Positions 5,379-39,715 are shown, numbered from the stretch's first letter. The stretch: 64,000 nucleotides of DNA from Fibrobacter sp. UWR2 (GCF_002210285.1 NZ_MWQE01000007.1:1-64000), one strand, 5' to 3'. Notes: generated by a model not told the origin, from the sequence alone. Translations and numbers: made by a program.

Positions 5379-8069
5379 CTATTTCCGAGCCGCCCTAAAC
5401 AGCGAATCGAGGCGTGTCGAAAGCTGCCTTGCGCCCTCGCGACTAAGGTGGTCTGTATTGAACGCCATACTCGAATCATAGTCGTGATATCCCATCTTGT
5501 TTTCATCGAGGAAAAGCACATCCAGTGTACGGGCCCACTCCAGAAGTTCCTGCGCCGCCGAGCGGCGCATGGAATAGATTCCGAACACACCTGTTTCTGC
5601 ATAGCCCGGATTTTGCGGCGGCACCAACAGCACGACCTGAACACCCCTTTCCCTTGCCGCATTGACAATATTTTGAAGTATTATCCTGTTTTTCTTGACC
5701 GAAGGCAAATCAAGAGTAAAGTACACCGAATCGTGAGCAATACTGGCCTCGCCCCAGCCAACTGCTGGGAGCATAAACTCGTCGAAACTGTAAGGTAGCA
5801 TCTGGCCCGGGCGCGTCTTGTAGGAATCCTCTACCAGCAAGACAAAACCCTTCGGCACGGAATCTACCCAGAAATCATGGGATTCATCGTACCTTATCCC
5901 AGGGGACATCACGTACATCGGAGCCCAGGAAACCTCCTCGGTGACCCACATGAAATCAGGAGAAAACTCGAGTACCAGGAACTTAAGCTGCGGCATATGG
6001 CGAAGCACATAGTTCATCGTCAGGTATTCCATCCCGTAAATATCACCCGATGAATAGCCCATGTTCAGCAGAGTTTCCGATTCGACAAAGGACTCGTTTA
6101 CGCCGAACATCACCCTCGAAGAACCCAGGACTACAGCGGTCACAGAATCGCGCAGTTTCCAGAATCTTTCCATCTTGACACGCAATTCAAGCGCATAATA
6201 ACCCATTTCGGGCGTGTAGTAGACACCCGCGCTATCAAGGTCCAGGTCCGGATCCACAAGGGAGTGATCCCGCTCGTTCATCCACACCGCCGGATGCCAA
6301 AGTTCCTCGCCCTGCAATATGTCGAGAACATCCCCCGTGAACGCATTCAGGAGAACAATCCTACGGTGGGCACCCTCGGCATCGACAAGCGTCGCCACGA
6401 CAAGGGAATCTGCATCGACGACCCATTCCGTATGGTCAAACGTATAGCCCGCAGGCGCCTTCTGCGAACGTACGAGCACTCCCGTACTATCGGCAAAAAG
6501 CAGCACCTCATGGATGGCGTAGTCTTCGCCGACAAATGCGCGTCCCGTACTCCCAGCAAAATCAAGGAACAAAGTAGACTTTCCCCCATTCCTGTGAAGC
6601 GACACATTGCACGCCTGTTCCCCGTTATACCAAAGCGAATCTACACCCGATACGTGCGTACGCAAGAGTCTTGCGCCCGTCACGGCCAAGGAATTATCCC
6701 GGCTCACGCCGCCATGGTAGGCGCCATCAAGAAGTTTCGTAGGCGAGCCGAACTTTCCACCGGAAAAGCGGACCTGCCATGTACTTGCCCGCATAAAGGC
6801 GGATTCATCCCTATTGTTCCCCGCATCCGTAACATAGACAATCACGGTGTCGCCATTGGCAAGCACACGCCAGCGCGGGATTGCCGCATTCTCCACATCG
6901 AGCCTTACCAGGCCAGACCCAGCCGAATCAAGCATACGAACATAGACACTTGACTTTCCGCTCACACCTTCTAGCCCCGTACAGAAAGCCACCCAATTGC
7001 CATCCGGCGAAATATCTGGGTGATAGACATCAATCGTATCATCTATTTCAACAACACTTGAAATATCGTCGGAATAATCTACAAAGGACAAATTCCCTGT
7101 TTCGTCATCACGGAACGCAACCTTTACTTTATTTGTATTCAGTTCACGTCGCATATCCATTGAATTCGCAAGAACCGAAACAATGGAATTCTTCTGCTCA
7201 CCATCACCACTCAACCACAAAGGGTTCGCTATTGCGCCAAATGCAAGCCTAAATCCCAGATAATCCGATTTAGAGACAGAAGTGACCATGTAAATGTCAC
7301 CTCGGGAATAAAGACGCATCTCCGATGCGGAATTTCTGAAGCTACTTCCCTTCAGAACCCGCTCTCCCTGCGGTCCTCCGTCAACTCCCCCAATATAATT
7401 TGCTACAGAACCGCTCCGGAAAGGCACATACCAGTCGTTAACCCATTCCGCCACATTACCCGCCATGTCACATATTCCGAGGCTGTCCACATACGCGCTG
7501 CAAACCCGGTGCGTGCGGTAATCTGAATTCTCGGCGTTCCATCCGGAATCCGGTGCCCAGCCTAGGTTGGCCGCATAGACCCATTCCGCCTCGGTCGGCA
7601 GGCGATACGCCCGCACACCCGGTAAGAACAGAAGATTGTCCATGCCCACACACGAACCTTCTTCATCATACGTAAGCCCAATGTAGGTATAAGCCGTATC
7701 AAAACCTTCGGCAACGCTCCGTTTGTTGGCATACAGGATGGCATCGAAATAGGTAACATTTACCGCAGGCAAGGAATCTTCGCACGAAAAGCCCATTTCG
7801 GCACACGTCACCTCGTGTTTACCGATAAAGTAATCATAATCAAAAGAAACTTTCATCGAGGGTTTAGCATGCGAACTAGTTTTCGCGCTATTCGTCCCCA
7901 GTGTCACATTCTTCCCGAACGAAGGAACGGGAATCATATCTTTCAGGTCGAGGGAATCCAGTACAGATATTCGTTCGCCTTCCTTCTTTTCATAGGCTCC
8001 CGTGGAATTTGAACAGCCATTCAAATTCGCCAACAAAAAAAAGAGCACTAGGGCGCCGAATATTTTCAT
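5379..8069 (-). CDS. TIGR02171-type lipoprotein: FGE-like + TolB-like propeller + SGNH-like domain
   Basis: The 896-residue product starts at the ATG 8067-8069 with a lipoprotein signal (MKIFGALVLFFLLANLNGCS). Residues about 75-300 resemble the formylglycine-generating-enzyme/SUMF1 fold (YRLPTEAEW, MAGNVAEWVNDWY, YLGFRLAF) but lack the catalytic cysteine pair, so it probably binds rather than oxidises. A TolB/PD40-like propeller follows (HPDISPDGNWVAF), then a C-terminal part with a GSSR motif and a late NTDHLSREGA motif, as in SGNH hydrolases. It matches the F. succinogenes paralogous family TIGR02171, whose function is unknown. A TATATT box ends about 8 nt before the ATG, so the mRNA may be nearly leaderless. 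A paralogue lies at 11.7-14.5 kb. Confidence 0.9.
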   Translation of the reverse strand: MKIFGALVLFFLLANLNGCSNSTGAYEKKEGERISVLDSLDLKDMIPVPSFGKNVTLGTNSAKTSSHAKPSMKVSFDYDYFIGKHEVTCAEMGFSCEDSLPAVNVTYFDAILYANKRSVAEGFDTAYTYIGLTYDEEGSCVGMDNLLFLPGVRAYRLPTEAEWVYAANLGWAPDSGWNAENSDYRTHRVCSAYVDSLGICDMAGNVAEWVNDWYVPFRSGSVANYIGGVDGGPQGERVLKGSSFRNSASEMRLYSRGDIYMVTSVSKSDYLGFRLAFGAIANPLWLSGDGEQKNSIVSVLANSMDMRRELNTNKVKVAFRDDETGNLSFVDYSDDISSVVEIDDTIDVYHPDISPDGNWVAFCTGLEGVSGKSSVYVRMLDSAGSGLVRLDVENAAIPRWRVLANGDTVIVYVTDAGNNRDESAFMRASTWQVRFSGGKFGSPTKLLDGAYHGGVSRDNSLAVTGARLLRTHVSGVDSLWYNGEQACNVSLHRNGGKSTLFLDFAGSTGRAFVGEDYAIHEVLLFADSTGVLVRSQKAPAGYTFDHTEWVVDADSLVVATLVDAEGAHRRIVLLNAFTGDVLDILQGEELWHPAVWMNERDHSLVDPDLDLDSAGVYYTPEMGYYALELRVKMERFWKLRDSVTAVVLGSSRVMFGVNESFVESETLLNMGYSSGDIYGMEYLTMNYVLRHMPQLKFLVLEFSPDFMWVTEEVSWAPMYVMSPGIRYDESHDFWVDSVPKGFVLLVEDSYKTRPGQMLPYSFDEFMLPAVGWGEASIAHDSVYFTLDLPSVKKNRIILQNIVNAARERGVQVVLLVPPQNPGYAETGVFGIYSMRRSAAQELLEWARTLDVLFLDENKMGYHDYDSSMAFNTDHLSREGARQLSTRLDSLFRAARK

Positions 8070-8106
8070 GACCCGCAATATACATTTTTCTACATTCTTG
8101 GGCACT

Positions 8107-8862
8107 ATGTATTCTGAAAACAAGTTCTTAGCAATGAAGGAGACTTCCAAGGCCAAGCGCATGGCGGAACTCCTGCGCGTCATCATATTGCAGCTGGGCG
8201 ACGACGTGCCCCGCGCCAAGCGAGAATTCGAGACGTATGCCGGCTGGATGAAGTTGCCCGAAGAAGAGCGCCTTACCGGCAAGAACCAGGCTCAGATGAT
8301 AGACCTGTACAAGACATTCCGCACGCGGGCGGGCCTCGGGTTCGAACGGGATGTCTATCTGGAGCAGGAACCGGGGGACCGCGAAACCCCGAATGAAAAA
8401 CCAATTTCTTTTGCCGTGCTGGTACATAACCTACGGAGCGCCTTCAACGTGGGTTCCATCATCAGGAGCACGGACTGCTTCGGGCTCGAAGGAGTCCACC
8501 TGAGCGGATACAGCTGCGGACCCGACCACGTGACCGTCAAGAGCGCCGCCCGCGGGTGCCAGGAGTGGATCCCTATCAAGCGTTGGGAAAGCCCGTTCGA
8601 ATGCATCCGCTGGCACAAGGAGAACGGCTACGAGATTATCGCGCTCGAGACCGGCGAAGATATCCCGAGCATAAACAACGTGGAATGGCCCGCGAAGGGC
8701 CTGATTGTACTCGGAAACGAGGAACTAGGAATCGCCCCCGAGATTATGGCGGAGGCGACAATGAAGGTGACCATACCAATGGCTGGCCGCAAGGCGAGCA
8801 TGAACGTCGCCGGAGCCTTCGCGATTATGGCATTCTGCCTAAGGAGCAGTTGCGGGCGTTGA
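8107..8862 (+). CDS. TrmH/SpoU-family RNA 2'-O-methyltransferase
   Basis: The protein (about 251 residues) has the three SpoU/TrmH motifs: motif 1 LVHNLRSAFNVGSIIRS, motif 2 LIVLGNEELGIAPEI, and motif 3 IPMAGRKASMNVAGAFAIM, which form the knotted SAM-binding site. It should transfer a methyl group to a ribose 2'-OH of tRNA or rRNA; the target cannot be read from sequence. The N-terminal 90 residues form a charged helical extension. ATG 8107 was chosen because upstream sequence belongs to the divergent promoter; ATG 8134 (MKETSK) is an alternative. Its last 24 bp overlap the convergent propeller gene. Confidence 0.88.
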   Translation: MYSENKFLAMKETSKAKRMAELLRVIILQLGDDVPRAKREFETYAGWMKLPEEERLTGKNQAQMIDLYKTFRTRAGLGFERDVYLEQEPGDRETPNEKPISFAVLVHNLRSAFNVGSIIRSTDCFGLEGVHLSGYSCGPDHVTVKSAARGCQEWIPIKRWESPFECIRWHKENGYEIIALETGEDIPSINNVEWPAKGLIVLGNEELGIAPEIMAEATMKVTIPMAGRKASMNVAGAFAIMAFCLRSSCGR

Positions 8863-10068
8863 CGCCTTCTCGCCGGAGAGCGCCTTTACCGCATCCGTCA
8901 AACGATTGATGGCCTGGATGAGTTCATCCATCTTGGCTTCGCTCACGCCACCTGCAACAGCAGCTCCGACCGCCGCCTGGGCAGCCTCGACAGCCTTCAC
9001 GGGAGTTTCCTTAACGGGGACCTTGCCAAGCCAGATATCCGGCCAGCGGTCGTTACCCGTGTGGTAAGTAATGCGGGTTGCCGTTTCTACCGGCTCGCCA
9101 ATCTTCCAAATGTAGAGTTCGTAGTCAAAGATATCGTGATCGTGCCCCTTGTCGGTCGCACCCCACACCAGCCACTTGCCATCAGGAGAGAGGCGCGGGA
9201 AGTATTCGTGGCTACGGCGGCCAGGCAAATCCATCAGTTTCACGTTCTTCGGGATGCCAAAAAATCCCACCTTCTCAATCTGCTTGCCATCCTTGGCACT
9301 GAACCACAGGATTTCACTCGGGGCAGCCGTACCGCCGTTACCCGTCGGGTTTACGCGGTAGAGCTTGCTGCCGTCGAAGTTCCAGTCAATCTGGCAACCG
9401 TCGCCGGACTTGGTCCACTGGGACTTTTCCAAGTCCCATACGCCCGTCTCGCGCATGGAACCGCGAAGCGTAATCGCCAGGTGTTTGCCGTCAGGGCTCA
9501 TGTTGGGTTCCTGCAGGATTACGCCACTCTTGTTGAAGGCCTTTTCGCCATCGAGAACCATCTTCTCGGCCTTGCTCGAAAGGTCCATCGTAAAAACCTT
9601 CCCCGCACGGCTGAACACGATAGACTTGCCGTCGGGGCGCCAAGTACCCCACGTAGCGTTGTCCACGACCTTGCGGGCATTCTCGCCCGTAATATCGACC
9701 ATCCACAAGTCCCACTTTTCAGGGTAGTTCGCATCGTTCTCGGGAACCCAGCCGCCCTTGCTACGGTTAAACAGCACCGTGGAGCCATCCGGAGAAATCC
9801 TCGGGAACCAGTCCACATTGTCGCCGCTCGTGAGTGCACGGGCATTCGTGCCGTCAGCGTTCATAATCCAGATATCGTGATGCGAATTTGCACGGCTCGT
9901 CGCCCAGACAATCGCGCCCTCAAGTTTTCCCTTGAAGGCAGAAAGGGCCTTCTGTTCGTCGGCAGTCGGGTCGACGGCGGCACCGGTAGGCGCTCCCTGC
10001 TGGGCAAAGACGGTAGACGCAGAAGCGACCAGCAACAGGCCAAACAACGGTTTTAGCAAATTCTTCAT
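8839..10068 (-). CDS. Secreted TolB-like beta-propeller protein with C-terminal helix
   Basis: The start ATG (10066-10068) gives a classical signal peptide (MKNLLKPLFGLLLVASASTVFAQ). The body carries repeated PD40/TolB-like blades (DIWIMNADGTNARALTSG, RISPDGSTVLF, WRPDGKSIVFS, PNMSPDGKHLAIT, RLSPDGKWLVWG). The C-terminus is Ala-rich and then helical with heptad character (MDELIQAINRLTDAVKAL). No catalytic residue is evident, and a periplasmic or surface binding role is inferred. No partner gene (Pal, TolA) is nearby. It is convergent with the methyltransferase gene, sharing 24 bp. Confidence 0.85.
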   Translation of the reverse strand: MKNLLKPLFGLLLVASASTVFAQQGAPTGAAVDPTADEQKALSAFKGKLEGAIVWATSRANSHHDIWIMNADGTNARALTSGDNVDWFPRISPDGSTVLFNRSKGGWVPENDANYPEKWDLWMVDITGENARKVVDNATWGTWRPDGKSIVFSRAGKVFTMDLSSKAEKMVLDGEKAFNKSGVILQEPNMSPDGKHLAITLRGSMRETGVWDLEKSQWTKSGDGCQIDWNFDGSKLYRVNPTGNGGTAAPSEILWFSAKDGKQIEKVGFFGIPKNVKLMDLPGRRSHEYFPRLSPDGKWLVWGATDKGHDHDIFDYELYIWKIGEPVETATRITYHTGNDRWPDIWLGKVPVKETPVKAVEAAQAAVGAAVAGGVSEAKMDELIQAINRLTDAVKALSGEKASTPATAP

Positions 10069-29268: not shown

Positions 29269-30468
29269 ATGAAGGCCTCTTTTCTCTCTTTTTTGACACT
29301 CGCGGGCTTTTGCGCCGCATGGGCAGCCCCCCTGTTTATCGGCTATTATCCCGACTGGGGAAAATGGCACAAACCCGCCTACACGGTAGACAAAGTCCCG
29401 TACGAAAAGTTGACGCACGTACTGTGGAGTTTCATTACGCCGAACACCGACGGTTCGCTCAAGGGCGATGCCGCAGACGACCCGACTGCACTCGATGAAA
29501 TGGTCTCGCTCGCGCACGCCGTAGGCACCAAGGTCATCGTCTCGCTCGGCGGTGGCGGACAGAGCGAAAACTTCGTGCCCGTCGCATCGAACGACGCGCT
29601 CCGCCAAAAGTTTATCACGAACCTCGTGCAGTTCCTCGCCGACCACAACCTGGACGGCCTTGACATGGACTGGGAATGGGAATACAATCCCGTACCCGAC
29701 GCAGACACCATCGCCTACAACAAGCTGCTCACCGAGCTCCGCGCAGCGCTCCCCGAAGGCAAGACTCTTTCGGCAGCACTCCCCTGCTCGCAGTATTACG
29801 GCAAATACTTCACGCCCGAAGTCCTCGTGAAAAACCTCGACTGGCTCGGGTTCATGACCTACGACATCACCGGCGACTGGGACGAAAAGGCCATGTTCGA
29901 TTCGCCGCTCTACCCGCACGAAGGCTACACCACCTGGTCGTGGGAACAGACCCGCGACTACTGGAAAAATCGCGGAGTCCCCACCGAAAAGATGGTCTTC
30001 GGCATTCCCTCCTTCGGGTTTGAATTCAAGGGCGCCACGGGCCCCGGCACCGATTTTACCAAGGGCACGGCAAAGCAGGTCCCGTACAAGGACATTGTCG
30101 CGAACACCGAATGGGAATACTTTTTCGACAGCGTCTCCGTGGAACCTTACGGCGTATCTTCGACCGGCTACGTGACCTTCGAAGATCCGCATTCCTCTGC
30201 CGTCAAGAGCCGCTGGGTCAAGGACAACGGCTACGCAGGCATCATGGTCTGGGAAGTCTCGCACGACTACATCGAAGGGGTCGGAAACCCGATCCTCGAC
30301 AGCATCGCGGTAGTTTTGCGCGATGGTTCCACCGACGCAATTCCATACGCCCGCAAGGTCCGCACCACATCGCAGCCCCGGGCGCAAGGCGTTACAGACA
30401 AGCAGGTGGACGCCCTCGGGAAGAGCGTGAAGGGCAAGCCGAAATTTATCCGTGTTTTCGAGCCGTAA
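29269..30468 (+). CDS. Secreted GH18 chitinase-like glycoside hydrolase
   Basis: The 399-residue product has a Sec signal (…LAGFCAAWA) and a GH18 TIM barrel: the DxxDxDxE catalytic motif in GLDMDWEWEY (near residues 131-140), the SLGGGG strand, MTYDITGDWD and the terminal IMVWEVSHD. GH18 enzymes hydrolyse chitin or related N-acetylglucosamine polymers by substrate-assisted catalysis. There is no carbohydrate-binding module. The C-terminal tail is Lys-rich. TATATT lies 13-18 nt before the ATG. Confidence 0.92.
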   Translation: MKASFLSFLTLAGFCAAWAAPLFIGYYPDWGKWHKPAYTVDKVPYEKLTHVLWSFITPNTDGSLKGDAADDPTALDEMVSLAHAVGTKVIVSLGGGGQSENFVPVASNDALRQKFITNLVQFLADHNLDGLDMDWEWEYNPVPDADTIAYNKLLTELRAALPEGKTLSAALPCSQYYGKYFTPEVLVKNLDWLGFMTYDITGDWDEKAMFDSPLYPHEGYTTWSWEQTRDYWKNRGVPTEKMVFGIPSFGFEFKGATGPGTDFTKGTAKQVPYKDIVANTEWEYFFDSVSVEPYGVSSTGYVTFEDPHSSAVKSRWVKDNGYAGIMVWEVSHDYIEGVGNPILDSIAVVLRDGSTDAIPYARKVRTTSQPRAQGVTDKQVDALGKSVKGKPKFIRVFEP

Positions 30469-30553
30469 AAAAATCATTTTTTTACTTGACTTTACGCAAA
30501 TTCTGTATTAGATTGACAACATCGGGTCTTTTCCCGAAAGGTGTGTGGATTAT
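30469..30553 (+). promoter_or_regulatory. Promoter region of the DUF4832-like gene
   Basis: TTGACT (30486-30491) is followed by a TTAGAT-like -10 (30508-30513) at 16 bp spacing. The gap is short and GH18 ends just before it. Confidence 0.45.
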
Positions 30554-32107
30554 ATGGTGAAAAAATATCTCGCGGGCGCCGCCCCCGTTATCACAACTGC
30601 GGCATTGGCAACAGGCATGCTTGCCGCAATGTCATTCGCGGCGGACCGTTCCGTCGCCCTCAACAAAGAAATCGAGACGCTCGAACCCATGAAGGGAATC
30701 GTGTTCTGGCCCGACCAGGCAAAAGACCAGAAGGACCTTCAAAAATCCATCTCGCTCGAATTCTCGTACTGCCTCCCCTGCGCCGTGGTGACAGGCAAGA
30801 CCGACGGCAAAATCAACTACGACTGGAGCAGTTTCGAGAAGATGCTCGACGACATCGCGAGCCGCGGGCACCAGGCTATCGTGCGGTTCCGCATCGAGTA
30901 CCCGAGCGCAACCATCACGAACGCATCGGGCTGCACCGAGAAGGTAAAGGGCGCCACCGCAGTCCCCAACTACATCAAGGCGAACAAGTCCTACACCGAG
31001 ACATATTCCGAAGACCCGGGCGGCGACGGCCCCACCTACTACGCCGACTGGAGAAGCGAAGAACTCAAGTGGTTCTACAAGCAGTTCTACACCGACTTCG
31101 CGGCCAAATACGATAAGGATCCGCGCATCGCCTTCGTGCAGGCCGGTTTCGGGCACTGGGCCGAATACCACATATACGGCACGACGCTCAAGCTGGACAC
31201 GAACTTCGCCGGCAAGGATTACCAGAGCGAATTCCTCAGGCATCTTGACACACTGTTTGCAGAGACTCCCTGGAGCATCTCCATTGACGCCGCCGACAAG
31301 AAATACACACCTATCGCAGGGAACAAGACCCTACTCGGGCTCAAATTCGGGCTGTTCGACGACTCCTTCATGCACAAGGAGCACGATATTGCGCAGGGTG
31401 ACGGCGACAACGAGAAAAACTGGCAGGCCATCGGCGAAAACCGCTGGCAAACATCGCCCGCCGGCGGTGAAATCAGCTACTACGAAGACAAGGACCAGCA
31501 CGAATTCCTGAACCCGGCAGGCCTCTACGGCGTCACCTGGGAAGATGCAGCCGCCAAGTACCACATGACGTACGTGATCGGCAACGACGCGCCCGAAGGC
31601 CAGTACGCCACCAAGGACCGCGTGTACGAGGCCAGTTCCTATGCGGGCTACAAGTTCGAAATCACGGGCTACGCAGTCAACAAGGTTTCGGCCGCCGTCC
31701 GCGTGAAGAATGTCGGCATCGCGCCGCTGTACCACAACGCCTACGTGACCGTGAAGGGAGTGCGCAGCAAGACTTCGCTCAAGGGACTTTTGCCCGGCAA
31801 AGAAGCCACCTACACCGTCGCAGGTCTCGAAATCGGCGACAGCGAATCGCCCGAAGTGACCATTACCGGCGACAAACTTCTGAAAGACGCGACCATCCCC
31901 TACAAGGCAAAACTCGACGGGAGCGCAGATGTCATCGAAGGGCTCGTCGACGAGAACGGAACCACAGCCATCGCGGGTGCGCGCATTTTAAGCCCCGACA
32001 AAGACAATCTCGACAAAACACGCACCAACAAGCTGACCGACCTCAAGGGCCGCAACGTTCCGGGCAAGGCCGCACACGGAGCGTATTACAAGGTCAAGGC
32101 GAAATAG
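30554..32107 (+). CDS. Secreted DUF4832-like (putative TIM-barrel) protein
   Basis: From ATG 30554 a long signal region (…ALATGMLAAMSFAAD) precedes a domain that looks like DUF4832/DUF4874 putative glycosidases: KGIVFWPDQ, AIVRFRIEYPS, YDKDPRIAFVQAGFGHWAEYH with a candidate acid residue, and SYYEDKDQHEF. The C-terminal 140 residues are beta-rich and end in a short TDLKGRNVPGK…GAYYKVKAK stretch that recalls the end of type IX sorting domains. GTG 30545 is another possible start. It follows the GH18 gene and may act on related polymers; the catalytic activity is not proven. Confidence 0.7.
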   Translation: MVKKYLAGAAPVITTAALATGMLAAMSFAADRSVALNKEIETLEPMKGIVFWPDQAKDQKDLQKSISLEFSYCLPCAVVTGKTDGKINYDWSSFEKMLDDIASRGHQAIVRFRIEYPSATITNASGCTEKVKGATAVPNYIKANKSYTETYSEDPGGDGPTYYADWRSEELKWFYKQFYTDFAAKYDKDPRIAFVQAGFGHWAEYHIYGTTLKLDTNFAGKDYQSEFLRHLDTLFAETPWSISIDAADKKYTPIAGNKTLLGLKFGLFDDSFMHKEHDIAQGDGDNEKNWQAIGENRWQTSPAGGEISYYEDKDQHEFLNPAGLYGVTWEDAAAKYHMTYVIGNDAPEGQYATKDRVYEASSYAGYKFEITGYAVNKVSAAVRVKNVGIAPLYHNAYVTVKGVRSKTSLKGLLPGKEATYTVAGLEIGDSESPEVTITGDKLLKDATIPYKAKLDGSADVIEGLVDENGTTAIAGARILSPDKDNLDKTRTNKLTDLKGRNVPGKAAHGAYYKVKAK

Positions 32108-32124
32108 TTTCGGTATGCCGCCCG

Positions 32125-33537
32125 CTAGTCCTTCACGCAGCGGACGGAAATGGCGTACATGTACTTCTCGTTAACCGAGATATGCGTCCCGGTCGCCCAG
32201 GAAGTATAGTCATCGTACATGATGAACATCCAGGCGTATTCCTCGGCATAGTCCAGCGACCAGAAGAACGCCTTCTCGCCGGCATTCTTGAATTCGTCAG
32301 AATCAAAAAGGTAGTAGCCGCCCGGCAACAGCGAAAAGCCGAAAATGTCGCTGCCGTAGGGCCACGCGGTAGCGCTCCTCAGCATGTTGGAAACGCGGTC
32401 GGGTTCGCCCTCGTCCACAACTTCGACTTTCGGCAAGAGCGCACTGGCCTGGTCCTCGACGTCGTGCATTTCCTTTGTCGTAGGCAGGTGCCAGCCATCC
32501 ATGCATATTCCCTGCACCTTCTCTAAATCCTTGCAATACGTTCCGTTGCCGCATGTGAGCGGATTTTCCGGGTCATTCGCAATAGCGACCGAGTCAATCG
32601 CGGCAGCCCACGTGTAAAGCCTGCCGTACTTGGTACAGCTATCCGCCTCGTTACCATAACACCAGCTTTTGCCAAGCAGGCTCGGCGTCGCATTGCTATC
32701 CGCATAGTTTAGATTTTCTGCCATCCACACCGCAGAATCCATCTGCACCGTCTTGTAAACTTGTCCGTCGCGCTCGTCCACGACTTCGCCATACTCGATA
32801 TCGGCATTCAGGTACTGCCAAGGCACCTTCCCTTCCAGGCCCATCTTTTTCGCAGTCGTATCCTTCGTCGAATTGATTCCCAACTCTTCTTCGCCACGCT
32901 TTTTCAAGTTCGCAGCCAAATTAGCCAGGTATTCTTCGGCGACAACCTTCGCGATAAACCTGCGCGTGCATACCAGGTGAAGTTCCGTACACGATTCTTG
33001 CCCGAGCTGGTCCACAAATTCACCATCAGCCTTTTCACAATCCTCCGCAAACGCATCGAAGTCCGCCCTACAGGCCGATTCATCGTCTTCCGCATAACTG
33101 TTGTCAAGCCTATCCGTGGTCACGGCGTACAGGGAATCTCGCGACAGAATCTGGGTCAGCGTCTTTTTCGTTTCACCCAAGGAGAGCGAAAGCCGGACGG
33201 CATTCTGTTTCTTGTAGATGTAGATACTCGAAGAATCCGCACCGGAATCTGCAGGCGCAAAGGCGTAATACCGTTCTCCATCCGAGTCAAAGTTCACCTC
33301 GTACCACGATATGGACGAATCGCCTTCCATCACAACCTTCGAAGAATCGACAGGCTCGGACTCCCACGTCGACAGGATCTTCATGTAGGCAACGGTATCC
33401 GTGATATTCTGCGCGTTTTCCTCTTCGGTCGTGCCATGCGCAAGATACTTCTCGTTTTCGGAACACGCCGCAACAACAGCCAAAAGAACCAAAAACGGAG
33501 AAATCCACAGAAGAAATACGGGTAGCAACTTGCGCAT
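32125..33537 (-). CDS. FISUMP-domain (TIGR02145) lipoprotein
   Basis: The 470-residue product has a lipobox (…LLAVVAACSEN). Residues about 255-470 are a Fibrobacter major-paralogous (FISUMP) domain: VYKTVQMDSAVWMAENLNY, CYGNEADSCTKYGRLYTWAAA, GWHLPTTKEM, FGFSLLPGGYY and FFWSLD. The N-terminal half contains a cysteine motif (C-x10-C-x3-DG-x-F-x-D near residues 155-180), also found in the lipoprotein at 63.3 kb. The FISUMP fold is related to formylglycine-generating enzymes but its role is unknown. It is convergent with the DUF4832-like gene (17-bp gap). Confidence 0.9.
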   Translation of the reverse strand: MRKLLPVFLLWISPFLVLLAVVAACSENEKYLAHGTTEEENAQNITDTVAYMKILSTWESEPVDSSKVVMEGDSSISWYEVNFDSDGERYYAFAPADSGADSSSIYIYKKQNAVRLSLSLGETKKTLTQILSRDSLYAVTTDRLDNSYAEDDESACRADFDAFAEDCEKADGEFVDQLGQESCTELHLVCTRRFIAKVVAEEYLANLAANLKKRGEEELGINSTKDTTAKKMGLEGKVPWQYLNADIEYGEVVDERDGQVYKTVQMDSAVWMAENLNYADSNATPSLLGKSWCYGNEADSCTKYGRLYTWAAAIDSVAIANDPENPLTCGNGTYCKDLEKVQGICMDGWHLPTTKEMHDVEDQASALLPKVEVVDEGEPDRVSNMLRSATAWPYGSDIFGFSLLPGGYYLFDSDEFKNAGEKAFFWSLDYAEEYAWMFIMYDDYTSWATGTHISVNEKYMYAISVRCVKD

Positions 33538-33566
33538 ATATGAGAAATATATAAAAGATTTTTGTC

Positions 33567-33643
33567 GGGGGAAGCCTCCCCCTCGCTCGCACTTCGTTGC
33601 TCCCTACCCCTTCGAGCGGGCCCTCAGTCGCCGGCCCGCAACG
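33567..33643. repeat. Left inverted flank of the accessory island
   Basis: This GC-rich element resembles the reverse complement of 39512-39624: the blocks GGAAGCCT-CCCCTCGCTC, CTACCCCTTCGAGCGGG and CTCA-TCGCCG-CCCGC occur in the same order. It lacks an inner ~45 bp palindromic part present in the right copy. It lies between the FISUMP start and the YhcG stop. Confidence 0.7.
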
Positions 33644-33748
33644 CCCCGGCTAATTATTTCAGCTTGGCAAGGTGGTCAAAATTTTTGACCACATCCTTTT
33701 TCTCACTTTTAATTGCGGCGAATTCGCCATAATTAAAGGCAAATTCAT
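33644..33748. other. Gap between left repeat and the YhcG gene
   Basis: The stretch is AT-rich and holds TTTTTGACCAC and an imperfect AATTGCGGCGAATT repeat. No gene or clear terminator is seen. Confidence 0.4.
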
Positions 33749-34891
33749 TTACAATCCCATCTCCTTCACTTCCTTAATCAAGAAGTTTTCTAACTGTTGC
33801 TTGTCGGGAAGTTGAAGTTTGTATGTCGAAACAAACAGCTTCTCGTCCATGCCATTTAACACGTACTGGACCATTTTCGGCCCTTTTTCCGTACAGAGCA
33901 AAATCCCGATCGGGGGATTATCCCCGTCCACCATCTCGCAATCCTTGAAATATGAGATGTAGGCATTCAATTGAGCCGCATGTTCGATGCGGAACTTACC
34001 GACCTTCAACTCCACAATCACATTGCAGTGCAGCAAACGGTTGTAAAGCACCAAATCGATAAAATTATACTCGTCGTCTATGATGATGCGTTTCTGCCGA
34101 GCCTCAAAGCAGAACCCTTTGCCCATCTCCAACAGGAACTCCTGCAAATGATCCATGATTGCTTGCTCCAATTCTGTTTCGGAAAAAGCATCCTTGGCAT
34201 CAAGGTCTAAAAAGTCGAGAGTATACGCATCCTTAACCGACAGAACTGCATCAGCACCGCCCTTTTCCACCCTTTGCAGTAGCAGTTCCGGCTTTTTGCT
34301 AATCCCGCTCCTGAAATAGAGCTTCGTGTCGATTTGCCGATGGAGTTCCCTCACGCTCCATGTGCCCTTGATACATTCAAGTTCATAGAAGAATCGCTCA
34401 ACAGGATCTTCGATAGGCATTATTTCTTTAATGTGCGAGAAAGAAAGTCGTGTTACAAGCAGTTCTGGCGGCGTTTCGAATTTGCGAGACACTGTCTCGC
34501 AAATTGAGCCACCGAGTTTTTTCTCAATAAAAGCCATTTTTCCGGGGAAAAAGTCTATTCCCCGCAATTTGTGAGACGCAGTCTCACAAATCTGTGGATA
34601 TTTCACGTAAAACATCCTGCATGCATTCAGCAACTGTCGGTCGAGTCCCTTGATGGACAACTTATCCGCCAAATTCTGCAATAGGCGAGCCCCGTACTTG
34701 GCTCGGTCGCACCCCTCTTGCTCATATTCGACTATATAGCAGCCGATGGCCCAATTTCGTATTGTCAGCAGCTGGTTTACAGCACCCTTGGCTACAGAAC
34801 TAGTCGCGTTATGGACGTTTTTTACTCGTTCTGCAAGGTTTTCAAAAGTTGTTCCGTCAGCCTTGCCGATAGGCGACACACGCTTATTCAT
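33749..34891 (-). CDS. YhcG-like PD-(D/E)XK nuclease (DUF1016)
   Basis: The 380-residue product matches the DUF1016/YhcG family: an N-terminal DUF1016_N helical region (IRNWAIGCYIVEYEQEG, YGARLLQNLADKLS) and a C-terminal PD-(D/E)XK nuclease (FIDLVLYNRLLHCNVIVELKVGKF, supplying the Asp and the E-x-K). The usual companions, type I restriction subunits, are absent here. It is divergent from the TPR-peptidase/MazG/helicase operon across a 438-bp gap that holds a structured RNA. A repeated ICETxSxK/KF phrase at residues 101 and 130 is odd. Confidence 0.88.
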   Translation of the reverse strand: MNKRVSPIGKADGTTFENLAERVKNVHNATSSVAKGAVNQLLTIRNWAIGCYIVEYEQEGCDRAKYGARLLQNLADKLSIKGLDRQLLNACRMFYVKYPQICETASHKLRGIDFFPGKMAFIEKKLGGSICETVSRKFETPPELLVTRLSFSHIKEIMPIEDPVERFFYELECIKGTWSVRELHRQIDTKLYFRSGISKKPELLLQRVEKGGADAVLSVKDAYTLDFLDLDAKDAFSETELEQAIMDHLQEFLLEMGKGFCFEARQKRIIIDDEYNFIDLVLYNRLLHCNVIVELKVGKFRIEHAAQLNAYISYFKDCEMVDGDNPPIGILLCTEKGPKMVQYVLNGMDEKLFVSTYKLQLPDKQQLENFLIKEVKEMGL

Positions 34892-35098
34892 CTTTTACTC
34901 CCTTCCCCGCAGACATGCGTAAAACAGCGGGGCTTTTTCGCTTCATTTTGCTCTTTTGAGCACTATAAATATAAACTTTCTAGGGGTGAATGTCAAGAGT
35001 TTTTTGAAAAATTCCACATTTTATACCATTCCAATAATCTATATTGCAGTTGACATAGCCCCGTACCGAATGGTTCGGAGCAACCGGAATTTTTGAGA
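34892..35098. promoter_or_regulatory. Divergent promoter gap of the island, start of the RNA leader
   Basis: A TATATT box (35040-35045) directs transcription to the right. A small hairpin CCGAA (35066-35070) / TTCGG (35074-35078) follows. The stretch reading towards YhcG is AT-rich. No protein gene is seen; the open minus-strand frame at 34980-35297 runs through RNA structure. Confidence 0.5.
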
Positions 35099-35262
35099 TT
35101 CGTCTCTTATTCTCGAACCTGAAACTACCACTTTCAATCAACACGAGAGTAAGACGAACGCTCACGTCCCAATTGGGGCGTGGGTCGTTTGTGCTTATTG
35201 TGTTGAAGGGTGTGGTAGCCCACAGGTTCGATAAGCACGCGAAACGACTCCACGCCTTTTTT
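35099..35262 (+). ncRNA. Structured RNA leader with terminator upstream of the TPR-peptidase/MazG/helicase operon
   Basis: Two stacked hairpins are visible. The first pairs TTCGTC (35099-35104) with GACGAA (35153-35158) and continues with TTA/TAA and TCTCG/CGAGA. The second pairs a 21-nt arm (35177-35197) with 35232-35256 through TAAGCAC, AAACGAC and CCACGCC blocks; its loop holds a smaller TGTGG-TAGC-CCACA hairpin. TTTTTTATTTT follows, so it ends like an intrinsic terminator. CCCAATTGGG separates the two. No known RNA family is recognised; it could be an attenuator, a separate small RNA, or the end of a mobile element. Confidence 0.6.
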
Positions 35263-35297
35263 ATTTTCAAATAATTGGTAGAGTTTTTCTTCTGCAA

Positions 35298-35332
35298 TAG
35301 GGACTTATCTCGCTGATAAGGATGCCCCTATG
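35298..35332 (+). promoter_or_regulatory. Hairpin hiding the ribosome site of the first island gene
   Basis: TAGGG (35298-35302) pairs with CCCTA (35326-35330), and CTTATC (35304-35309) pairs with GATAAG (35315-35320) around TCGCT. The Shine-Dalgarno AAGGA (35318-35322) sits 7 nt before ATG 35330 and is partly inside this stem, so translation could be blocked unless the stem opens. Confidence 0.55.
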
Positions 35333-37258
35333 GCAAAAATCGAAGTCATACAGACTGTTGACACATCAAATTTCAAGGCAGCCAATGCCGAAGAGCTGAA
35401 AAAGCAGATTGTACACTATTTTGCCGAAAAAGGATGTCCACCGACTGTTGAAATCATTTCCGACAATACAGTCAAAATCACTTTTGACACAGATAGCCTT
35501 GAATACGCTGAAAAGAATTTTCAGAAAGCGTCTTTAGCTTGCAGTGAGGGACGTTTCAATGCGGCAATGGATTTGCTGCATAAAGCAATCAAGGCCTGCC
35601 CTGGGTTTTCTGAAGCTCATCGCCTTCTAGGACAAGTTTTCTACCAGCAAGGTGAAATAGAGAAGGGCATGAACGAAGTCCTTGAGGCGCTTCTCATCGA
35701 CCCCAAAAATATGTGGGCACTCATCCTGATGGGCAACATCCTCGCCAACGGCAAGAATAATGCCGAAGCCGCAGACGGATATTACAAGAAAGTTTTGGAA
35801 TACTATCCCGATAATGCAATTGCTCTCAACAATGTGGCCGGGACACTGATCAAGAAAAAAGATTACGACGGGGCAATTCGCTACATGAAGCGAGCCCTTG
35901 AATTGGATAATACCTACACGAACAGCTATTACGGAATTGCTTTGGCATACTATCAAAAGGACGATTTGGACAACGCTTTTGAATATGCGAGTCAAGGTGC
36001 GCTGAAGGGAGTCAATCGCGCAGAAGATCCTGGCGTTCGTCAAGAACTTTTGAAACTGCTGCTGACCATTGCAAGAGATATTGCTCAATCTACAGATTAC
36101 GAATCCAAGGTTTTCGAATTTGCGCACAGCCTTGAAACCAAGTTTGATGTAGCAATCAAATTCGAGCGCGATGACGAGCAGGATACTTTAGCACATTTGG
36201 AATTCGCAGATTTCCATCATCGCAAGGATCACGTTGTCAAATACAAGAAAGATGGCAACTATTGCCACTACATGCTGCATGAATTGACTCACCTTGAAAT
36301 GATGTTATCCGCCCAAAGGAATGGCAAACTCCAGACCATCGGATTTACACAGAAAAATTTTGATGCTTTCTTGCAAGACTATAAACGCCATTTCGATGAA
36401 GTCAAGAAAAAAATAGGTGCAGTCCAATCGGAAAAATTGGCGAAGCACTTATTCCAAGGATTGTCATTACAGGTAATGAACGCTCCGTTAGATTTGTTCG
36501 TAGAACAGAATATCTATCAGAAGACGGTATTCAGGCCACTTCAATTGACATCGTTATTTGCAATGGAATCAAGCAACATCGATGCCGTGCGACAGACCGC
36601 GAATGTTGCTGAATTTCCGCAAATTATCAAGGACACGAATAAACTGTTAAACATGCTTCAATCCTTGCTTTTACGCAAGCTCTATGGATTGGATTTTGTC
36701 AATCAGTACAAGCCCTCGCAAAACATGCTGAACAGAGCAAAAGAGTTTTTCAAGGTATTTGAAGATACTCTTGCCACGTTCAATGCCGGCGACGAATACA
36801 CAGTCTTTGAAAAGGTTGCTACAGCACTTGGCCTAGTAAAGTATTTCACGCTTTCCGGCGTAGAAAAGAGCGAAATCAAAACAGAGACCGACAGAAAGCA
36901 GGACCAGTTCAACGAAACGCACAATCCTGCAAATGCAGATCCGATGATTGCCGTCATGATGTCCTCCTATATGGTCGGGGCTTTGGAATACTTTGAAGGA
37001 CTATTGCCAGAAGACATCGAGAAGATTGCCTTTGAATGCGCCATGGTTGGACAGAACGGAATCAGCCCGGCACAAAAGAGCGGATACAAACTGAACAACG
37101 TTCCTGAAAAAGACTTTAGCGGCTATGAACTGCTCGCTTATTACTATGCAAGCTGGGCAATTTCACATCCAGAAATGCTTGACAAGTTGCAATTGCCGTT
37201 TGCGGATGCCTACAACATGGCAAAACAGATGTTTGATTCCAGACGAGGTGAAAAATGA
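35330..37258 (+). CDS. TPR protein with HExxH zinc-peptidase-like domain
   Basis: The 642-residue product has an N-terminal region of tetratricopeptide repeats (about 50-230: EYAEKNFQKASLACSEGRFNAAMDLLHKAIKA…, NAIALNNVAGTLIKKKDYDGAIRYMKRALEL). After that comes HYMLHELTHLEMML, an HELTH zinc-binding motif at residues 317-321, so it may be a peptidase. The rest is helical and novel. It is the first gene of a three-gene operon; its stop overlaps the MazG start (ATGA). No signal peptide is present, so it acts in the cytoplasm. A peptidase triggered through TPR contacts is an inference. Confidence 0.85.
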   Translation: MAKIEVIQTVDTSNFKAANAEELKKQIVHYFAEKGCPPTVEIISDNTVKITFDTDSLEYAEKNFQKASLACSEGRFNAAMDLLHKAIKACPGFSEAHRLLGQVFYQQGEIEKGMNEVLEALLIDPKNMWALILMGNILANGKNNAEAADGYYKKVLEYYPDNAIALNNVAGTLIKKKDYDGAIRYMKRALELDNTYTNSYYGIALAYYQKDDLDNAFEYASQGALKGVNRAEDPGVRQELLKLLLTIARDIAQSTDYESKVFEFAHSLETKFDVAIKFERDDEQDTLAHLEFADFHHRKDHVVKYKKDGNYCHYMLHELTHLEMMLSAQRNGKLQTIGFTQKNFDAFLQDYKRHFDEVKKKIGAVQSEKLAKHLFQGLSLQVMNAPLDLFVEQNIYQKTVFRPLQLTSLFAMESSNIDAVRQTANVAEFPQIIKDTNKLLNMLQSLLLRKLYGLDFVNQYKPSQNMLNRAKEFFKVFEDTLATFNAGDEYTVFEKVATALGLVKYFTLSGVEKSEIKTETDRKQDQFNETHNPANADPMIAVMMSSYMVGALEYFEGLLPEDIEKIAFECAMVGQNGISPAQKSGYKLNNVPEKDFSGYELLAYYYASWAISHPEMLDKLQLPFADAYNMAKQMFDSRRGEK

Positions 37259-37584
37259 GCGACTTTGAAAAAATGAAGGCGAAGGTCAAGCAATTCACTA
37301 TTGACCGCGATTGGGATCAATTCCATAATGGCAAGGATCTCGCCATTGCTCTTTCGGGCGAAGCATCGGAACTTCTCAATGCGTTTCTCTGGAAGAAGCC
37401 CGAAGATGTAAAAATTGAGAAAGTCAAGGAAGAACTCGCAGACGTATTCAATTATGCATTCTTGATGGCCGACAAGTACAATCTCGACATTGAACAAATC
37501 ATGGATGAAAAACTGCGGATTAACGGAGAAAAGTATCCAGTTGATAAGGCTAAGGGATCCGCGAAGAAATATAACGAGTTGTAG
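37255..37584 (+). CDS. MazG-like nucleotide pyrophosphohydrolase
   Basis: The 109-residue protein has the MazG/RS21-C6 metal motifs: SGEASELLNAF and VKEELADVFNYAF, followed by LDIEQIMDEKLRINGEKYPV. Enzymes of this type split nucleoside triphosphates into monophosphate and pyrophosphate; the closest biochemical guess is dCTP-type pyrophosphohydrolase. It overlaps the first gene by 4 bp and precedes the helicase by 11 bp. Placed in a nuclease/helicase operon it may deplete nucleotides during phage attack. Confidence 0.9.
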   Translation: MSDFEKMKAKVKQFTIDRDWDQFHNGKDLAIALSGEASELLNAFLWKKPEDVKIEKVKEELADVFNYAFLMADKYNLDIEQIMDEKLRINGEKYPVDKAKGSAKKYNEL

Positions 37585-37595
37585 GGGTAAGAACA

Positions 37596-39473
37596 ATGAT
37601 TGTATATAGCGGTATAAAATCTGAATTTATGAATAGCGTTGTTAACGACACCATTGCCCTGGAAGTTCAAAACACTATTTGGCAAAAAATGGGAAGAGCT
37701 ACTCCACAGAATGAATTCCGTGCTTGGGAAAATTCCTTACAATATATGTTCAAAGTGTTGAGTGACGAAGAAATCCCTAGTAATGCAGGCATTGCCATTG
37801 AATACAACATTCCTCAGACAAGTAAGCGAGTCGACTTCATCATTTCTGGGTATAATGAAAAGAAAGAGTCAAATGCTGTTATTATTGAATTGAAACAGTG
37901 GGAAAAAATTGAGGCTATAAATTCTACTGATGCTTTAGTAAAAACATATGTCGGAGGAGCCAACAGACTTGTTGTTCATCCCTCTTATCAAGTATGGTCC
38001 TATACCAAAATGATTGAGGATTATAACCAAAATGTACAAGACTCAAAAATAACGTTGTCCCCATGTGCATATCTTCATAATTATACAAAAGTTGACAACG
38101 ACCCCATAGAGGCTCCACAATATAAAATCTATCTAGACGATGCACCCGCATTCGCCAAAGGCGACGTTCCTAAACTTAGGGACTTTATAAAAAAATGTAT
38201 CAAAAAGGGCGATAATCGCGAAATCCTCTATCATATAGATCACGGGAAAATAAGGCCCTCCAAGAGTCTTCAAAATGCCATTGGGCGAATGCTTCAAGGT
38301 AACAAAGAATTCACCTTAATAGACGAACAAAAGGTTATTTACGAGCAGATTTTAAAGTGGGCTCAAGAAGCACTAAAAAAAGAACAAAAGAAAACCATTA
38401 TTGTTGAAGGAGGGCCGGGCACAGGAAAGACCGTTCTTGCAATTAATCTTCTTGCGCAGCTAACAAAAATGGGTCAATTCGTCCAATATACATCAAAAAA
38501 TTCTGCCCCACGAAATGTTTATCTAGCTAAATTAAAAGGGTTATACACGAAAAGTAGCATAGACAACATGTTCAAAAGTTCTGGAACCTATGTTGAAGCT
38601 CCGACCAACTCTGTACACACTATACTTGCCGACGAATCTCATCGTCTTAATGCAAAATCAGGACTATATCAAAATTTAGGCGAAAATCAAATAAAAGAAA
38701 TAATCAATGCATCCTATTGCAATGTTTTTTTCATTGATGAAACCCAACGTGTGACCATTGATGATATTGGTTCCATTGACGAGATAAAAAAATGGGCAAA
38801 TCAACTAGGATCAACAATTGAACATGTGCAATTACAATCCCAATTTCGCTGTAACGGTTCAGATGGTTATCTAGCATGGTTAGATGATGTTTTGGAAATT
38901 AGGGAAACAGCAAATTATAATTTAGATGGCATAGACTACGATTTTAGAATTTTAGATAATCCTGAAGATGTTAGGACTCTAATTGTAGAAAGAAATAAAA
39001 TTAACAATCGTTCTCGTATTCTGGCTGGTTATTGTTGGGATTGGAAAAAAGATCAAAACAACAACACAAACTATCACGACATAAAAATCGACTCATTCGA
39101 AATTAGTTGGAATTTGAAGAACACTACGACATATGCAATAGATCCAGGATCCATTAAAGAGGCTGGTTGTATCCACACATCACAAGGTTTAGAGTTTGAT
39201 TATGTAGGTGTTATAATCGGCAAGGACATTCGTTACGAAAACGGAAAAATCGTTACAGATTTCACACAACGAGCAAGAACCGATAATTCATTAAAGGGAA
39301 TCAAGTCTATTTATAAAAAGAAACCTGCACAGGCTCTTCAAATAGCCGATAAAATCATCAAGAACACATACAAAACCCTTATGACCCGCGGAATGAAAGG
39401 TTGCTACGTATATTGCTGCGATAAGGCTTTAGCCGATTATCTGCGTAAAAGAATAGACATCAGTAATATATAA
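37596..39473 (+). CDS. PD-(D/E)XK nuclease fused to Schlafen-group-3/DUF2075 helicase
   Basis: The 625-residue product has an N-terminal PD-(D/E)XK-like nuclease core (RVDFIISGYNEKKES, then VIIELKQWE, residues about 75-102). A superfamily-1 type helicase follows (DUF2075/SLFN-g3): Walker A EGGPGTGKTV near 271-280, a DESHR motif, Walker B FFIDETQR near 378-386, QSQFRC (motif III-like), HTSQGLEFDYVGV and a terminal TRGMKGCYVYCCD. It should bind and probably degrade nucleic acid. Codon use is more AT-rich than the flanking core genes. It ends the operon; the downstream repeat begins about 40 bp later. Confidence 0.88.
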   Translation: MIVYSGIKSEFMNSVVNDTIALEVQNTIWQKMGRATPQNEFRAWENSLQYMFKVLSDEEIPSNAGIAIEYNIPQTSKRVDFIISGYNEKKESNAVIIELKQWEKIEAINSTDALVKTYVGGANRLVVHPSYQVWSYTKMIEDYNQNVQDSKITLSPCAYLHNYTKVDNDPIEAPQYKIYLDDAPAFAKGDVPKLRDFIKKCIKKGDNREILYHIDHGKIRPSKSLQNAIGRMLQGNKEFTLIDEQKVIYEQILKWAQEALKKEQKKTIIVEGGPGTGKTVLAINLLAQLTKMGQFVQYTSKNSAPRNVYLAKLKGLYTKSSIDNMFKSSGTYVEAPTNSVHTILADESHRLNAKSGLYQNLGENQIKEIINASYCNVFFIDETQRVTIDDIGSIDEIKKWANQLGSTIEHVQLQSQFRCNGSDGYLAWLDDVLEIRETANYNLDGIDYDFRILDNPEDVRTLIVERNKINNRSRILAGYCWDWKKDQNNNTNYHDIKIDSFEISWNLKNTTTYAIDPGSIKEAGCIHTSQGLEFDYVGVIIGKDIRYENGKIVTDFTQRARTDNSLKGIKSIYKKKPAQALQIADKIIKNTYKTLMTRGMKGCYVYCCDKALADYLRKRIDISNI

Positions 39474-39511
39474 GCTCTTTTTGGAAACTTGTGCTCCATC
39501 TATTCTCTATT

Positions 39512-39624
39512 AGCGGGGGCGGCGATTGAGCCCCCGCTCGAAAGGGTAGCGGATGATACGGCTAGATGGCGGGTCGCAGCCCGCCATGACGACGTAGCAG
39601 GAGCGAGGGGAAGGCTTTCCCCTC
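39512..39624. repeat. Right inverted flank of the accessory island
   Basis: This GC-rich element contains GCGGGGGC-GGCGATTGAG-CCCCCGC and a palindrome TGGCGGG-TCGCAG-CCCGCCA, and ends GAGCGAGGGGAAGGCTTTCCCCTC. Its reverse complement shares ordered blocks with 33567-33643. A mobile-element end or REP-type cluster is possible; no transposase is seen. Confidence 0.7.
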
Positions 39625-39650
39625 ATATAAAGGCCTTTTTTCGCAGAAAA

Positions 39651-39690
39651 ACAAGGAAGATTCCCGGTCAAGCCGGGAATGACAATGAAG
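39651..39690. repeat. REP-like palindrome upstream of valS
   Basis: TTCCCGG (39661-39667), TCAAG, CCGGGAA (39673-39679), followed by TGACAATGAAGG. It resembles palindromes at 50.15 kb and 57.3 kb that also carry GTCAT-C next to a GC stem. Confidence 0.6.
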
Positions 39691-39715
39691 GTATTTTACT
39701 ATCTTTGTGCCCACT

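Follow-up and report, generated by a model that had tools for sequence, protein, structure and literature searches.

SLFN-g3/DUF2075 helicases, whose nearest PADLOC models are AbiO, PDC-S41 and Nhi, share a superfamily 1 (SF1) helicase core that some of them combine with an N-terminal nuclease, and a protein of this kind is encoded in a 64,000-nucleotide (nt) stretch of Fibrobacter sp. UWR2 (GCF_002210285.1, NZ_MWQE01000007.1:1-64000), hereafter the window, from contig 7 of the genome coded G000 (relatives are coded G### and loci L###). By contrast with AbiO, PDC-S41 and Nhi, the helicase here shares an operon with a tetratricopeptide repeat (TPR) protein bearing a zincin-like domain (TPR-zincin) and with a MazG-like enzyme, behind a structured leader RNA. 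Restriction-modification (RM) systems of types I, III and IIG, BREX and McrBC-like systems resemble it in holding the exchangeable position behind TPR-zincin genes, but the front cassette described below is not a described part of any of them, and a review on McrBC (PMC11090510) names a TPR protein in a figure legend only. In the openly licensed PubMed Central literature, no description of the three-gene operon or of such an RNA was found. Neither the TPR nor the MazG protein is covered by a model in PADLOC 2023, which gives only weak, partial matches of 45-51 bits for the third protein (AbiO, PDC-S41, Nhi), and in no PADLOC system do the models of all core genes match the operon. This agrees with the preliminary description of the locus, which knew of no described system with this gene set; a description of the cassette or of the RNA elsewhere (subscription papers, preprints, current DefenseFinder models) is possible. 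As a putative anti-phage defence operon, the three-gene set is well supported by its genomic context, and we favour, with slightly better than even confidence, a reading in which it combines a reusable front cassette with an exchangeable module that would attack nucleic acids, by the mechanism proposed below.

The three genes lie on the plus strand. The first (35330-37258), assigned from Pfam TPR families and an AlphaFold2 model, encodes the TPR protein, whose C-terminal part is an HExxH zincin-like domain with HELTH at residues 317-321; the second (37255-37584) encodes the MazG-like enzyme, similar to dCTP pyrophosphatase 1 (DCTPP1) and matching PF12643 (1.5e-17); the third (37596-39473) joins a PD-(D/E)XK-like N-terminus, recognised from the motif VDFII...IIELKQ and from relatives, to an SLFN-g3 SF1 helicase, in which PF09848 covers residues 265-609 (1.9e-100; 337 bits, cut-off 24). 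The preliminary description had proposed these three open reading frames and their spacing, and both were recovered, with a 4-nt ATGA overlap between TPR and MazG and an 11-nt gap between MazG and helicase; its domain assignments likewise agree with Pfam, including DUF1016_N and YhcG_C in the neighbouring YhcG gene (33749-34891, minus strand). The genes are tightly coupled and their order recurs in relatives, in line with the operon that it had suggested.

Comparison with relatives revealed a conserved front cassette (35029-37587, plus strand), comprising the leader RNA, TPR-zincin and MazG, behind which the next gene is swapped. DNA homology with four relatives (G098, G135, G081 and G073) indeed begins just 5' of the leader RNA and runs as far as the MazG stop codon; at the protein level, TPR and MazG are 91-94% identical to their counterparts in the window, the third gene only 27-32%. 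A PD-(D/E)XK-like third gene is present in G098 and in one G135 copy; those of G081, G073 and the second G135 copy match GIY-YIG weakly. The same swap is seen in a second, distant clade: the Pedobacter locus L088 and locus L087 share 84% DNA identity over 7071-9599, with the MazG stop at 9598, and past it diverge into an AAA_5 plus DUF2357/PDDEXK_7 module or an SLFN helicase. Homology of L091, which has type I RM behind, to L088 ends about 130 nt beyond the TPR stop, and this stretch is possibly a MazG remnant. Elsewhere, the genes behind TPR are type III RM, SNF2 with a type IIG-like gene, BrxC and REase-like genes, and also McrBC-like and type I genes, and at least 17 module changes are required on the TPR tree. 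Given the same border, the varied downstream modules and the number of changes, TPR-zincin, often with MazG, is a front cassette for many restriction-type systems. At the level of sequence, the cassette borders and the swap at the MazG stop codon establish that the front half is modular. In the SLFN version of the module, Walker A is present in 33 of 34 proteins, and the N-terminus is GIY-YIG-like in 9 (by eye) and PD-(D/E)XK-like in 25 (with a loose motif).

The three-gene order, sought in other genomes, was found adjacent in Fibrobacter relatives, in many Bacteroidota and in a Microcystis element. A survey of 168 Fibrobacterota genomes yielded full-length TPR homologues, from near-identical down to 80% identity, in six other members of the genus, and further ones in G094 (62%), G133 (a fragment at a contig edge) and G070 (41%). 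MazG and then the SLFN-g3 helicase follow the TPR gene in seven Fibrobacter relatives (the six genus members and G094); the G070 homologue is without MazG and SLFN-g3 helicase behind it. Scanning with a C-terminal alignment (A1) gave 80 loci, including a few Fibrobacter again, in Bacteroidota, Chlorobi, Nitrospirota and metagenome-assembled genomes of Opitutales and Leptospiraceae. According to hidden Markov models of the three proteins, MazG stands directly behind the TPR gene in about 43 of these loci and an SLFN helicase behind TPR and MazG in 27, with gaps mostly of -4 to +12 nt; both counts are lower bounds, since many loci are cut by contig ends. The full set also occurs on a Microcystis record with Rep3 and ParA, and an operon copy in several broken reading frames, reflecting decay or sequencing errors, on a Marivirga plasmid (L048, NZ_CP129969.1, 4178-10518). 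On a Hymenobacter plasmid (L047, NZ_CP114769.1), TPR-MazG is followed by McrBC. A scan of viral_contigs found no relatives. The Microcystis record (L049, PP438423.1), deposited as Microcystis phage Mwe-JY31, has Rep3 and ParA-like genes and may be a plasmid, and the Hymenobacter plasmid carries several defence genes in a row (DUF2075 helicases, TPR-MazG, McrBC, phospholipase D-like, SIR2).

The MazG-like protein resembles DCTPP1 more closely than a general nucleoside triphosphate drain, to judge from its alignment. It matches DCTPP1 over its whole length, catalytic residues included (1.3e-15), with the ExxE...ExxD metal site and two Trp present, features that relate it to DCTPP1/RS21-C6 and PF12643, from which it differs in being coupled to defence modules. 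A strict MazG motif was passed by 31 of 43 relatives. The pair MazG-DUF2075 occurs without a TPR gene on plasmids of Halalkalicoccus (an archaeon) and Priestia, and MazG is paired with HNH in Nocardiopsis. DefensePredictor (PMC13092281) lists MazG among predicted defence domains that are unvalidated. A possible, though rather unlikely, specialisation of the enzyme would be the removal of modified dCTPs (5-methyl or 5-hydroxymethyl), so that phage DNA would stay unmodified and could be cut by the module that follows. DCTPP1, which MazG resembles, accepts 5-modified dCTPs, and several phyla as well as archaea pair MazG with restriction-type nucleases, both in line with this role; the MazG operon L124, however, has a methylase module of its own. 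Anti-phage dCTP deaminases and dGTPases act by removing a deoxynucleotide (dNTP), as MazG is predicted to do, but MazG belongs to a different enzyme family and is one part of a larger operon.

The HELTH zinc motif to which the preliminary description drew attention is not a chance occurrence, H317, E318 and H321 being kept in 72 of 73 TPR-zincin homologues, a figure somewhat biased by the set having partly been collected with a pattern including HExxH. In the same set, N384, P386, D388 and E392 are conserved in at least 99% of sequences and NxPxDxxxE is nearly invariant, and the protein thereby shows both sequence hallmarks of zincins, HExxH and a further conserved acidic ligand. AlphaFold2 models the protein with confidence (pLDDT 90.4). 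By sequence, no solved relative of the zincin-containing part was found; in fold searches, the full model retrieved TPR proteins only, and the isolated C-terminal domain had no significant match among PDB folds, with only weak ACE matches at E 5-9. About seven Bacteroidota loci have an XRE-type regulator in front of the TPR gene. The homologue set leaves out a family of related proteins of about 290 amino acids (aa), which has lost HExxH and is widespread in Fibrobacter beside ordinary genes (L012-L026, L042-L046). Convergent genes, one of them UmuC-like, lie behind the lone TPR-zincin of the Chlorobiaceae (L083, L098, L101).

The involvement of these two proteins in abortive infection, where the nuclease-helicase would be the sensor of phage nucleic acid while MazG and the TPR-peptidase would kill the cell by destroying dNTPs and a vital protein, appears unlikely; this reading is close to the one in the preliminary description. 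Effectors that act as proteases or by dNTP depletion are known and the genes are tightly coupled, but MazG is often missing and TPR-zincin also heads self-sufficient DNA cutters (type I, III and IIG RM, BREX, McrBC-like), which makes a common regulator more natural than a common effector. TPR-zincin is a reused front part of many systems, for which the role of a regulator fits at least as well as that of an effector.

Overlooked in the preliminary description, a structured leader RNA of about 217 nt (35049-35265, plus strand) was identified 64 nt 5' of the TPR start codon from folding stability, conservation and covariation. The interval 35020-35330 folds far more stably than shuffled sequences (z -5.75), and 35049-35265 is conserved in all nine Fibrobacter cassettes. 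A long hairpin (35115-35229, plus strand), the predicted antiterminator form, shows together with a small 5' hairpin changes on both sides in 23 of 53 pairs as well as conserved G-U pairs, with a covariation of 0.358 as compared to 0.148 after shuffling and no more than 0.104 when slid. For the terminator hairpin (22 bp) with its T-run (35177-35262, plus strand), 62 of 66 copies keep a stem of 14 bp or more and all 66 a T-run of 5 or more, and compensatory stem changes were recognised by eye in copies such as L263, L268, L281, L294, L301 and L303. Both hairpins use the same strand and are therefore mutually exclusive; on this evidence the leader has two alternative folds, each conserved, which is the usual logic of attenuation, and it is predicted to be a transcription attenuator. 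It shares mutually exclusive hairpins and an intrinsic terminator before the gene with trp-type attenuator leaders, but belongs to a new sequence family that heads RM and defence operons, with no leader peptide conserved to the eye and no Rfam 15 match above the gathering score (best isrC, 21.6 bits against 39). The candidate leader peptide, a short reading frame MVRSxRxF, was rejected, being not conserved in L035-L037 (by eye), and a local hairpin, P2, in the 5' half is not claimed, as it is disrupted in L037 and in two deletion copies.

High-scoring copies of this RNA mostly stand directly in front of RM genes. A model of it (R1) detected the RNA in 91 of the 168 Fibrobacterota genomes, with seven copies in G000. 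Of 75 copies, a set picked by score and not by gene content but including all G000 copies, 74 have a same-strand gene within 300 nt, mostly at 30-110 nt. These 74 genes comprise 31 N6_Mtase, nine N6_N4_Mtase, three EcoRI methylase and two D12 methylase genes, the remainder including UvrD, HsdR-type and SNF2 helicases. Conversely, among 30 N6_Mtase genes in eight genomes, the RNA lies upstream (within 1.5 kb, same strand) of 11, where 0.06 would be expected, and never on the opposite strand or downstream; the corresponding P of about 5e-22 is a simple Poisson estimate that ignores relatedness. About 12 of 20 weaker copies also precede RM genes, mainly cytosine-C5 methylases. The link between leader RNA and RM is strong, though not exclusive. 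In Bacteroidota, the only convincing copies (L061, L090) lie just 5' of TPR-zincin genes; other R1 matches in whole Bacteroidota genomes were set aside as chance, being weak and mostly away from defence genes. As a multi-copy family, the RNA heads type I, II, IIG and III RM genes (G000 C2, C11; L244-L303, L319-L338). A mini-operon encoding proteins of about 224, 139 and 118 aa, the first of which has no Pfam match, recurs between two RNA copies upstream of RM genes (L252, L255, L263, L266, L273, L280, L282). Weak copies at L270, L284 and L289 precede genes of a single cluster, some of which carry the bacterial EndoU nuclease domain known from a toxin family.

That the 217-nt element works as DNA, either as a recombination site or as an attC-like mobile palindrome travelling with defence cassettes, seems improbable. 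It does mark the 5' border of exchangeable cassettes and sometimes occurs twice in tandem, but its terminator end with a T-run on the sense strand, its conserved G-U pairs, its position close upstream and on the gene's strand in 74 of 75 copies, and its absence opposite or behind N6_Mtase genes all speak against it.

From a mechanistic point of view, we propose that the leader acts as a transcription attenuator, whose terminator would normally stop transcription until a signal linked to infection or transfer favours the long hairpin and the operon is read through. The third protein, replaced elsewhere by RM, BREX or McrBC-like modules, would recognise and cut foreign nucleic acid, while MazG would remove dCTP or modified dCTPs, so that the phage is starved or denied protective modified bases. 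TPR-zincin may bind a protein with its TPR arm and serve as a switch that cleaves a partner or regulator once the module has been engaged or blocked. In this proposal, attenuation is based on structure and context, attack by the module on domain content, the role of MazG on its relatives, and the TPR-zincin switch mostly on reuse across systems. Several observations weigh against it. About 8 of the 20 weaker RNA copies precede lipoprotein or unknown, non-defence genes; covariation of the terminator is weak in the nine-sequence set, as most of its pairs never vary there; and two of the nine leaders (L032, L039) are without 13-15 nt of the antiterminator arm. Moreover, protease activity of TPR-zincin is predicted from its motif, the zincin domain having no significant fold match, and the Chlorobiaceae gene stands alone. 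Finally, MazG is missing from about half of the TPR operons, and 12 of 43 MazG proteins fail the strict motif test.

A broader generalisation, which we advance tentatively and at somewhat less than even confidence, is that the TPR-protease, with the dCTPase, forms a general restriction plug-in able to join nearly any restriction-type module as regulator or backup, and that a class of RNA switch shared across Fibrobacterota times the expression of defence operons, among them RM of types I, II, IIG and III. If so, one accessory cassette would serve many unrelated defence systems, with a common way of supervising restriction, for instance when a phage blocks it, and the leader would be an RNA-based control element for RM operons as a group. 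The timing of RM expression, by which the host is protected before cutting starts, is an old question that would then become directly testable.

The genomic setting is in line with a role in defence. The left neighbours (29269-30468, 30545-32107) and valS are conserved in relatives, and the slot between them (window 32107-39707; L185-L202) is short or empty in G100, G112, G067, G094 and G092, in keeping with the accessory island that had been proposed; GC content is 0.36-0.47 across 34-40 kb, as compared to about 0.54 in the surroundings. Sister genomes carry there type III RM with YhcG (G074), type IIG RM (G062), two DUF262/SspE-like genes (G103) or ZacB and ZacC (G136), a variable cargo that marks the stretch before valS as a defence hotspot. 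The defence context suggested earlier thus gains from known systems in the same slot and from homologues heading RM, BREX and McrBC-like operons. A metabolic or stress operon with no defence role is very improbable: TPR, MazG and helicase domains do have housekeeping roles as well, but the genes are patchily distributed, are carried on plasmids, lie in a hotspot and are paired with many RM types, which argues against it.

Two neighbouring features of the preliminary description were confirmed as such and not as members of the set. YhcG is indeed a divergent gene beside the operon, but the two are not neighbours in the relatives examined, and the G074 slot holds YhcG without the operon. It moves independently, so that YhcG (PDC-S02) was rejected as an operon partner. 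The inverted repeats exist as well (34 nt, 85% complementary; 31 nt, 81%), but they were rejected as ends of an element flanking the set: the right-hand one has partial matches at nine further places in the genome and the left-hand one is found elsewhere in relatives, so that both look like dispersed intergenic repeats.

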